A DNA stretch of 64,000 bases. Source: Alphaproteobacteria bacterium. GTDB taxonomy: Bacteria > Pseudomonadota > Alphaproteobacteria > Rhodospirillales > Casp-alpha2. The DNA is taken from NCBI GenBank assembly GCA_024279135.1, contig JAJRRU010000032.1:124001-188000 (forward strand), in the 5' to 3' direction. This document shows, in pieces, positions 11,583 to 14,500 of the stretch (positions are counted from its first letter, which is position 1; every line of letters starts with the position of its first letter). The translations under genes and the position numbers were made by a program. Below the pieces are notes generated by a model. The model did no database searches. It was not told the origin of the DNA and saw nothing but the letters and a program-made list of their open reading frames with translations.

Positions 11583-12815
11583 ATGACACGCCGTTTTGAG
11601 CTTGTACAGATGCCAGCCTCCCGCGAACCGATGTCTTTATTATCGGTAGACCGGAGCGTGTCTGAGCTACGACGCGGTCGGATTATTGCAATCCGGGGCC
11701 ACGAAGGCCGTTCTACCTTGATACTGGCCGCCGAAGCCGTCACCGATGAAGGTTTGCAAAATCTGGCAAAAACCGCGCAAGGATTAACCGACGAAGCCAC
11801 TGACAACACCGACAACACTGACAGCGCCCACAAAAACGCCTTGAATAGTGTTTTAAGCCTGGCAGTGACCGCACGACGGGCAACCGTCCTTGGGCTGAGT
11901 TCAAATGAGGAACTGGCTACGATCCTGTCTTTTGAGAATAATCTTGTATTGACGGCGGACTTGATCGCTCAGTTCTCTGACCCCTTATCAATGGCCGGAG
12001 AAAACCTGCCGCTGAAAGATTTTGAATCCATCCGGGCTGACGAAAGCGCGACCTTCAGCAACGAAACCGCCGCCATTGCGCTGGCCAAGGTCGCCCGACT
12101 GCTGCCGGCCTGCGTTGTTGCACCCATCAGCGATCCCATGGCCGAAGATCTGGATGCCTGGGTAAAGCGGCACGACCTGTTCCTCTGTGATGCGGGGGAT
12201 GTTTTCCAGTATGACAACACACAAGCCCGCTCCCTGTCCATTGTCAGTCAGGCACGGGTGCCACTGGCCGGTGCCGAAGACACCCATATTATTGCCTTCC
12301 GCCCAGCCGATGGCGGGTTGGAGCATCTGGCAATTGTCATTGGCCAGCCCTCATCCGAACAGCCTGTTCTGGTCCGTCTGCATTCTGAATGTTTTACCGG
12401 CGACTTGTTATCCAGTCTGAAGTGTGATTGTGGAGACCAGTTGCGCGGGGCCGTTGAAGAGATTTCCCGCAAAGGCCATGGTATCCTGCTTTATCTGGCT
12501 CAGGAAGGTCGAGGCATCGGGCTGGTCAACAAGCTCAGGGCATACGAATTACAAGAACGCGGGTTTGATACCCTGGATGCCAACGAACAACTTGGTTTCG
12601 ATGCCGATGAGCGCATCTACCTGCCCGCCGCTCAAATGCTGCACACCCTGGGTTTTAATCAGATCCGGCTCATGACAAACAATCCGGACAAGGTGGCTTC
12701 GCTGTCTGCTTGCGGCATGGACGTTGTTGAACGTGTCACCCACACCTTCCCGACCAACAAACATAATGAACACTATCTGGCCACCAAGGCCCGGCGCAGC
12801 GGCCACTTTTCCTGA
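11583..12815 (+). CDS. ribA: GTP cyclohydrolase II with degenerate DHBP-synthase-like N-terminus
   Basis: 410 residues. The C-terminal half is a GTP cyclohydrolase II: the zinc cysteines in HSECFTGDLLSSLKCDCGD, the catalytic LAQEGRGIGLVNKLRAYELQ and the TNNPDKV motif are intact. The N-terminal about 200 residues resemble the RibB (3,4-dihydroxybutanone-4-phosphate synthase) fold, but I do not see the EDREDEGD catalytic loop, so that half is probably inactive. RibA opens GTP for riboflavin synthesis. There is no FMN riboswitch in front. Confidence 0.85.
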   Translation: MTRRFELVQMPASREPMSLLSVDRSVSELRRGRIIAIRGHEGRSTLILAAEAVTDEGLQNLAKTAQGLTDEATDNTDNTDSAHKNALNSVLSLAVTARRATVLGLSSNEELATILSFENNLVLTADLIAQFSDPLSMAGENLPLKDFESIRADESATFSNETAAIALAKVARLLPACVVAPISDPMAEDLDAWVKRHDLFLCDAGDVFQYDNTQARSLSIVSQARVPLAGAEDTHIIAFRPADGGLEHLAIVIGQPSSEQPVLVRLHSECFTGDLLSSLKCDCGDQLRGAVEEISRKGHGILLYLAQEGRGIGLVNKLRAYELQERGFDTLDANEQLGFDADERIYLPAAQMLHTLGFNQIRLMTNNPDKVASLSACGMDVVERVTHTFPTNKHNEHYLATKARRSGHFS

Positions 12816-12842: not shown

Positions 12843-12867
12843 TGTCTCTGCTGACAGGCAGTTTTTT
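12843..12867 (+). terminator. Probable terminator after ribA
   Basis: A short GC stem (CTGC / GCAG at 12848-12851 and 12858-12861, with an alternative TGTC/GACA pairing) is followed by a run of six T at 12862-12867, about 30 bases after the ribA stop. The stem is weak. Confidence 0.5.
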
Positions 12868-12929
12868 CCCTGATCCTACATTTTTCCCATATGACGCCGA
12901 CTAACATATTGTAATTAAATAATTTTATC

Positions 12930-12945
12930 TGGCACACCATTTGCA
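12930..12945 (+). promoter_or_regulatory. Consensus sigma-54 (-24/-12) promoter
   Basis: TGGCACACCATTTGCA matches the sigma-54 consensus TGGCAC-N5-TTGCA at every fixed position, with GG and GC exactly ten bases apart. The start point would be near 12957 and the ATG of the next gene is at 12977, with AAGGAAAG as ribosome site. No activator gene is adjacent and no upstream activator site was recognised with confidence. Confidence 0.75.
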
Positions 12946-12976
12946 GATCATTCCTCAACACAAGGAAAGCTTGTAA

Positions 12977-13969
12977 ATGATGAATGACATTACGCACCTT
13001 CAGGCAGGCGCCAGCCATGCCAATAATCAAGCCGTCATGCAAACCGTAGCCAGCCTTTCTGTGCAAGCACAGCAATCGGGTGATGCGCCCAGACCAGCGG
13101 GTGAAACAAAGGGTAACACAGAAGATCAGGGTCTGACTTTTTTTGACTTTCTGGATATTATCAATCCCCTGCAACACATCCCGATTATATCAAATATATA
13201 CCGGGCGATTACCGGCGATGAAATGTCATCTACTGCCCGGTTTATCGGTGACAGCTTGTATATGGGACCCATCGGGGCGGCGTCGTCGATTATTAATATC
13301 GCCCTGGAAGAATCGACCGGCGATGACATTGTCGGACATGTAGCCTCCTTGTTCTTTGAAGACCAGGATGATGCAGAACCTAGCTCGATTGTTGCCGAGA
13401 ACCAACCCGCCCAATCCAATCAAACCGTCGTTCAGGCGCAATTAGGCAACCAGACCCAGGCAATGAATGCGCCCCTCAACCCCGGCGCTGTTTTCACGTT
13501 CCCTCAAGCCCCGGTAGGCCAGCCAAATGCCGGACTGAGCGCCCCCCCCATGCCCGCACAAACTTCCCATATGCAAGGGGTTCAAGATACTGCCGAGGCA
13601 ACATTACAGCCTGCCGCCGCATCAAACCTGGAATCGACTTCTCTAACAAGTTTCAACGCCACCTCGCAACCCGTCGCCCTGGAATATCTGCCTGCCGATA
13701 TTCTGGCTGCCCTTTATAGCGGTGCTCCGCTCAACACTGGCTTAAAACCATTATCAGCCCATACAAATGAGACACCCGACATGCAACCGCGTTGGAACCT
13801 GTGGAACAATCTGGAACAGCAAACAGAGCGTCCCGAGAAGACCGCTGCGCAAGAATCTATCCCCCTGCCCCTGTACCCAAATGCCATCGTCGGGGTCTTG
13901 AACAGCTACGAAAATTCTGCCAATCTGGGCAGACAGACACAGAAGACCTTTATCAACCTTTATCAATAG
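12977..13969 (+). CDS. Conserved hypothetical protein under sigma-54 control
   Basis: 330 residues, not recognised as any named family. Residues about 48-135 form an ordered, conserved-looking domain: FFDFLDIINPLQHIP, then a Tyr-Arg-Ala-Ile-Thr-Gly-Asp-Glu stretch, a Gly/Ala-rich hydrophobic GPIGAASSIINIALEE and GDDIVGHVASLFFED. The rest is low-complexity, rich in Ala, Pro, Gln and Asn, and looks disordered. There is no signal peptide or clear transmembrane segment, though the domain has amphipathic or hydrophobic stretches. A perfect sigma-54 promoter lies 32 bases upstream. The L,D-transpeptidase gene follows nine bases after the stop. Nitrogen or flagellar regulation is possible; function unknown. 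Confidence 0.75.
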   Translation: MMNDITHLQAGASHANNQAVMQTVASLSVQAQQSGDAPRPAGETKGNTEDQGLTFFDFLDIINPLQHIPIISNIYRAITGDEMSSTARFIGDSLYMGPIGAASSIINIALEESTGDDIVGHVASLFFEDQDDAEPSSIVAENQPAQSNQTVVQAQLGNQTQAMNAPLNPGAVFTFPQAPVGQPNAGLSAPPMPAQTSHMQGVQDTAEATLQPAAASNLESTSLTSFNATSQPVALEYLPADILAALYSGAPLNTGLKPLSAHTNETPDMQPRWNLWNNLEQQTERPEKTAAQESIPLPLYPNAIVGVLNSYENSANLGRQTQKTFINLYQ

Positions 13970-13978
13970 TGACCCTGC

Positions 13979-14500
13979 ATGACAAATCTGGTGCCTTATA
14001 TTGACGTATACGCACCGGGCAGGCTCCTGTTACAGGGCCACCAGATGGTCTGTGCCCTTGGCCCAAACGGTATCGCGCCCGATAAAAAAGAAGGCGATGG
14101 CATAACCCCGGCTGGAAGCTTTGCCTTGCGGCGGGTGTTTTATCGCCCCGATCGCATAGACCCGCCCCAGACCGGACTATCGGTACAAGCCCTGCAGCCC
14201 GCCGATGGCTGGTGTGATGACCCCGCAAGAGCCGAATACAACCGGTTTGTCATCCTGCCGTTCACCGGCTCCTTTGAGGCCTTATGGCGCGAAGACCACC
14301 TGTACGATATCATCGTCGAGATCGGGTATAACGACAATCCGCCCATCGCAAACCTGGGCAGTGCCATCTTCATGCATGTGGCACGCGAAAATTACCAGCC
14401 AACACAGGGCTGCGTCGCCCTTGCCATAGACGACATGCTGACCATGTTACGGTCCTGTCACCAGGAAACCCGATTACGCATTAATCCAACGACGGTTTAA
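13979..14500 (+). CDS. YkuD-family L,D-transpeptidase-like protein
   Basis: 173 residues with the YkuD catalytic core: the GDGITPAGSFALRRVFYRPD substrate-loop region and the FMHVARENYQPTQGCVAL motif, which supplies the catalytic His and Cys. No signal peptide is visible, unusual for an enzyme acting on periplasmic peptidoglycan; small alphaproteobacterial YkuD proteins of this length are often leaderless, and their real substrate is unclear. It starts nine bases after the sigma-54 controlled hypothetical gene, so the two are probably co-transcribed. Its 3' end overlaps the convergent yggS by 20 bases. Confidence 0.85.
   Translation: MTNLVPYIDVYAPGRLLLQGHQMVCALGPNGIAPDKKEGDGITPAGSFALRRVFYRPDRIDPPQTGLSVQALQPADGWCDDPARAEYNRFVILPFTGSFEALWREDHLYDIIVEIGYNDNPPIANLGSAIFMHVARENYQPTQGCVALAIDDMLTMLRSCHQETRLRINPTTV

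Follow-up and report, generated by a model that had tools for sequence, protein, structure and literature searches.

Gene X, an unnamed gene behind a conserved sigma-54 promoter, as a probable member of the flagellar regulon of Alphaproteobacteria

Introduction

In Caulobacter, FlbD together with FliX activates the sigma-54-dependent genes for rod, ring and hook (PMC3930126, PMC3096577, PMC6180460), and IHF is counted among the parts of flagellar promoters there, as far as the reference list of PMC3096577 indicates. A second described system bears on the neighbourhood of the gene discussed here: the YkuD L,D-transpeptidases include an LDTGo type, whose representative Gox1074 needs export (PMC10864386). 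Lists of alphaproteobacterial flagellar parts stem mostly from flagellar clusters; the gene that we describe, which we call X, lies outside such clusters and has no name.

A conserved promoter and its upstream elements

Gene X occupies positions 12977..13969 on the forward strand of the 64-kb stretch of DNA that was analysed (the window) and is an open reading frame with homologues both in close relatives and across the class. In front of it stands TGGCACACCATTTGCA (12930..12945, forward strand), a sigma-54 -24/-12 promoter box that is the sole exact match to TGGCAC-N5-TTGC[AT] in the window, where 0.08 would be expected by chance. The preliminary description had placed a box fitting the sigma-54 consensus at all fixed positions 32 bases before the ATG of a 330-residue protein; the match is indeed exact, the product does have 330 residues, and we count 31 bases between the end of the box and the ATG. 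Across the 3.65-Mb genome there are 6 exact boxes against 3 for the reversed control pattern, and four of the six have plausible targets, namely X, pspA, dctP and a trimethylamine-dehydrogenase-like gene, target assignments that are a reading of the sequence, with PspF confirmed by profile.

What sets the box in front of X apart is its conservation. Of 75 non-redundant X loci, 72 reach a PWM score of at least 14 in the upstream region. For seven neighbouring gene families (YkuD, RibA, YggS, ThiE, the response regulator, LolA and LeuS), none of the 34-64 loci available for each does so; this conservation rules out a chance origin. When 76 non-redundant upstream regions are aligned on the box, T-G-G-C-A-[C/T]...T-T-G-C is near-invariant. 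A first count had scored the box as absent at five loci. At four of them (L053, L059, L114 and L116) this was an artefact of the choice of start or of a strict threshold: on rescoring, L059, L114 and L116 carry a consensus box and L053 a near-consensus one, TGACATATGCCTTGCA. At the fifth, L069, the contig ends before the upstream region. Among 29 loci sampled at the level of the class, the box scores at least 14 in 20, and box and upstream palindrome (see below) are both present in 18; the remaining loci mostly have weaker boxes with good palindromes.

In relatives, the X leaders (for instance those of L066, L078, L087 and L098) hold a further element, AACGGGAA, 7-12 nt before the ATG. It is strongly over-represented (19 of 72 leaders, 0.4 in shuffles), and it is perhaps a variant ribosome-binding site or a translational control element; the leader in the window has AAGGAAAG in its place.

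Upstream of the box lies a palindrome, ACAGGCAGTTTTTTCCCTG (12854..12872, forward strand), which we read as an enhancer (UAS) of FlbD type and which is a degenerate version of the CGGCA-N5-TGCCG consensus of the family. An unbiased palindrome search recovered GGCA-N5-TGCC exactly in 46 of the 76 X upstream sequences, against 0.35 in shuffles, and the palindrome almost always stands 65-80 nt before the -24 T, about 75 nt above the box. The copy in the window keeps the position relative to -24 that is seen in relatives and scores 12.7 bits, where the best scores of 205-nt stretches of the window have a 95th percentile of 7.1; in a genome of the same genus (G001, locus L052) the palindrome is exact. 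Between UAS and box, at a fixed position, sits an IHF-like element, TAACATATTGTAA (12901..12913, forward strand), for which the family consensus is YAAN4TTGAT and from whose core the window copy deviates. The shorter form YAAN4TTGA, which we take to be the reverse of the IHF consensus, occurs at -28 to -31 from the -24 T at 36 of 76 loci, against 0.8 in shuffles. We had initially read the window palindrome as a terminator of ribA; the comparison places it at the enhancer position, and both roles are possible. Open papers yielded nothing usable on a consensus for the FlbD site.

Which regulon?

If the palindrome is an enhancer, which other genes carry it? Joining UAS and box into one pattern (UAS-N42-72-box) gives 39 matches in 20 genomes and none for the reversed pattern, and this contrast makes the pattern a simple means of listing candidate FlbD-regulon genes in other alphaproteobacteria. 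The genes that follow it are X, the hook protein gene flgE, a gene for a GGDEF protein of about 245 residues, an orphan of about 190 residues and a BTLCP peptidase gene, the last in a single genome; a few matches, such as one at a cytochrome oxidase gene, look like chance. In the flagellar cluster of the same genome as X, box and UAS stand upstream of flgF (UAS score 19.0), flgE (9.4) and flgI (14.0), and the two elements recur ahead of flgF, flgE and flgI in genome G072 and ahead of flgE and flgI in G007. No such UAS is found at pspA, at dctP or at three further sigma-54-like sites in this genome, the best score being 2.4. FlbD is encoded beside flhA (NF050807 equivalog, 751.8 bits against an NCBIfam cut-off of 750) and FliX is encoded too (PF10768, 2.6e-32); FlhA, RpoN, NtrC, NtrX, PspF and others are encoded as well. 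Because X has palindrome and box in common with flgF, flgE and flgI, in a genome that encodes FlbD and FliX, we are highly confident in assigning X to the FlbD/IHF/sigma-54 (rod-ring-hook class) flagellar regulon, and FlbD is very likely the activator of its promoter.

The other genes behind this control region are of interest in their own right. The GGDEF gene stands behind this UAS and sigma-54 promoter in several genomes (L144, L155, L157-L159) and likewise in our own (L145, C12:154422-154505), where the GGDEF signature looks degenerate; the shared control region suggests that the FlbD regulon includes a diguanylate cyclase. The orphan of about 190 residues (L164, L167-L169), several copies of which end in RRTDIFV, also has the same UAS and promoter and gave no Pfam match where it was scanned (L167); on these grounds it is a second unnamed member of the putative regulon. 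For the BTLCP (Peptidase_C93) gene, this control region is seen in a single genome (L143). Separately, the pspA-pspB/C-like genes of our genome (L032, C4:131976) have an exact sigma-54 box and a divergent pspF and look like an ordinary PspF system without an FlbD-type UAS.

Distribution and gene order

Mapping the spread and gene neighbours of X, as the preliminary description had proposed, found homologues in 82 of 100 relatives, across some 30 of the order's families. Of 385 genomes sampled from the class Alphaproteobacteria, 154 (about 40%) have X; named matches include Rhodospirillales and Micavibrio drafts. The usual order is ftsK-lolA-response regulator-ribA-X-ykuD-yggS-thiE-leuS, with the response regulator and yggS on the opposite strand. 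X also occurs in other settings: by his genes (L122), a trpS-like gene (L130) or surE/pcm (L047), and, in Micavibrio (L046, L048-L050), beside an RND efflux pair. The ribA gene of the window (11583-12815) encodes a RibA with a degraded DHBP-synthase domain ahead of GTP cyclohydrolase II, PF00926 falling below the cut-off.

X and flagella tend to occur together. In the 385 genomes, X and FliX are both present in 137, X alone in 17, FliX alone in 71 and neither in 160, an odds ratio of 18 from counts that ignore phylogeny. Among the 100 relatives, four (G042, G058, G086 and G089) are without rod-protein and FlhA matches, and X is absent from three of these four. In G042 YkuD follows ribA directly, and in G086 it faces the response regulator; neither genome has X, box or UAS, and both keep RpoN. 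The exception is G058, an 85%-complete draft in which X has both box and UAS with no rod or FlhA match; an apparent loss of the promoter in this flagella-less genome was dropped after rescoring. The co-occurrence is also incomplete in the other direction, as four flagellated genomes (G077, G093, G081 and G082) have no X match; these genomes, together with the 17 that have X without a FliX match, mean that X is not universal. Additionally, G014 (L181), which is without an FlhA match, keeps the X promoter and a weak UAS with the core domain deleted; its X is, by its sequence, a decaying copy.

The X protein

As the preliminary description had found from sequence, X resists assignment: searches of Pfam, NCBIfam and PDB sequences with X returned no match, and the same searches with 41 homologues returned isolated chance matches only, with no profile match to FlgJ, FliK, FlgD, FlgN or other known flagellar families. 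The homologues range from 139 to 543 residues (median 321). Their conserved core, FxF-DxLDIINPLQHIPxxSxxYRxxTGDEI...GGxLFGGPIG...TGKDxGxH, spans about residues 45-126 in the alignment (13106..13378, forward strand) and takes in both the NPLQHIP and the GDDIVGHV motif by which the ordered part had been recognised; N63, P64, L65, H67, P69, Y75, D81, G91, G97, G100 and G115 are invariant in 41 sequences. Behind the core, composition and alignment agree with the earlier description of a disordered tail rich in Ala, Pro and Gln, which is poorly conserved and in many homologues holds repeated DPVxxWA-type motifs. At the C terminus (13871..13966, forward strand) the alignment of 91 homologues has a helix with the family motif GGWFxxxMLxALxKYxxxxxL, which has diverged in the window; its W-F...M-L...A-L..Y pattern is present in 47 of the 91. 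A search of open papers for NPLQHIP gave nothing usable.

Structure prediction, another step that had been suggested, gave poor models. AlphaFold renders the core of some 80 residues as all-helical at low confidence (pLDDT 56; 49 for full X) and predicts a helix at 301-329 with a confidence between low and moderate (pLDDT 54-67 for the block); Foldseek searches with these low-confidence models found nothing below E 4.8.

Two further features bear on where X acts. Cysteine makes up 0.02% of 28,953 residues in the homologues and is absent from all 7,290 core residues; the comparison values are 1.3-2.7% in RibA, YggS, LeuS and YkuD and 0.07% in periplasmic LolA. A hydrophobic N terminus resembling a signal peptide is found in none of the 91 homologues.

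Proposed role of X

The full FlbD-IHF-sigma-54 region has been kept over great evolutionary distance, which argues for a selected role of X in building or using the flagellum. We consider it probable, with some reserve, that X is a flagellar accessory protein of Alphaproteobacteria that has so far gone undescribed; judged from its genomic comparisons, it very probably belongs to the flagellum-building machinery and has been overlooked there.

How might such a part work? The MS ring, C ring and export gate, as early parts, would be built before X is turned on. FlbD, under FliX control, would then bind the palindrome, some 75 bp upstream, and with IHF bending the DNA between UAS and box, sigma-54 RNA polymerase would start transcription of X from the box at 12930-12945, so that X would be made alongside the rod (flgF), hook (flgE) and P-ring (flgI) proteins, with the downstream YkuD gene expressed by read-through. 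X itself would be exported via the flagellar type III system and help hook-basal body assembly, its helical core serving as a docking part, its flexible tail and C-terminal helix forming a spacer and an arm for binding. Because X has no signal peptide and almost no cysteine, we consider a site of action outside the cytoplasm the most likely. Disordered proteins, too, are often low in cysteine, and this feature suggests export rather than proving it. Export with a role in the hook-basal body is accordingly a proposal to which we give somewhat less than even weight, and we offer still more tentatively the idea that X founds a new family of type III-exported flagellar assembly proteins in Alphaproteobacteria, a periplasmic or hook scaffold, an adaptor, or a length or timing device, with no enteric counterpart.

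The same protein can be read as staying inside the cell. X might be a cytoplasmic or polar scaffold or a regulator of the late flagellar programme, an unexported disordered hub for polarity, division or c-di-GMP signalling; the repeated DPVxxWA-type short motifs in its tail, the small GGDEF gene behind the same UAS and promoter, and the lack of a signal peptide all suit this reading, whereas near-zero cysteine even in the ordered core would be unusual for a cytoplasmic protein. We think an intracellular role possible, if on the unlikely side.

The YkuD neighbour and further alternatives

Starting nine bases after the X stop is a leaderless YkuD protein (13979..14500, forward strand; PF03734, 1.2e-11), as the preliminary description had seen. 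X and YkuD are adjacent and co-directional at 78 of 94 loci, with a gap of mostly 0-66 nt (57 loci), and YkuD is likely co-transcribed with X. The earlier proposal went further and took the two genes as a module, and one could imagine an envelope-remodelling unit in which X places the L,D-transpeptidase at the wall around the flagellum or activates it there. Adjacency, shared direction and short gaps would fit such a unit, but X with its promoter persists without YkuD at nine loci with 4 kb or more of sequence available downstream, YkuD stays where X or flagella are absent (G042 and G086), the conserved order also takes in ribA, yggS, thiE and leuS, and YkuD is leaderless with 2.7% cysteine, as if cytoplasmic. 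The two-gene module of the preliminary description finds no support in these comparisons: the X-YkuD adjacency is, on this evidence, an old and widespread gene order and not an obligate pair, and a joint role at the wall strikes us as decidedly improbable.

As for the enzyme itself, the YkuD family has about four cysteines per protein, the catalytic one included, and a leaderless protein so rich in cysteine suggests a cytoplasmic enzyme. An LDTGo-type LD1,3-transpeptidase was considered and set aside, the protein being leaderless; in a search of PDB sequences at E 0.01 it had no match, the LDTGo and YcbB structures of PMC10864386 included, and on this search we do not class it as LDTGo-like.

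The preliminary description left the signal at nitrogen, flagellar or envelope stress. Its flagellar option has held, through FlbD and the UAS common to flgF, flgE and flgI; the others have not, with this UAS missing at pspA and dctP, and on the same comparison PspF, NtrC and DctD were dropped as activators. A nitrogen or envelope-stress gene answering NtrC, NtrX, PspF or DctD, all four of which the genome encodes, would also have to be squared with the loss of X alongside flagella in G042 and G086 though RpoN stays, and we regard it as very improbable. Lastly, we give next to no credence to the notion that X merely drives or insulates YkuD expression and that its ordered domain is incidental, for although X lies between promoter and YkuD and has a poorly conserved tail, its core residues are invariant across the class and it has its own promoter in other gene contexts.

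Comparison with known systems

Set beside the YkuD L,D-transpeptidases, the LDTGo type included, the downstream protein has the same catalytic domain (PF03734), but it is leaderless and not flagellum-specific. Set beside FlgJ, FliK and other exported assembly factors, X is alike in having no signal peptide, almost no cysteine and flexible regions, and in being expressed with hook-basal-body genes, as judged from its promoter; it differs in that no sequence relation to FlgJ or FliK is detected, FlgJ (PF10135) and a FliK-like 600-aa ORF with no Pfam match both having genes of their own. The third comparison is with the FlbD/FliX class III genes of Caulobacter crescentus. Unlike these, X is not among the recognised flagellar proteins, and its place is in the ribA-ykuD-yggS-leuS region, away from the flagellar clusters; like them, it has a sigma-54 -24/-12 promoter, an upstream palindrome and an IHF-like site in a genome with FlbD and FliX, a likeness in the kind of elements.
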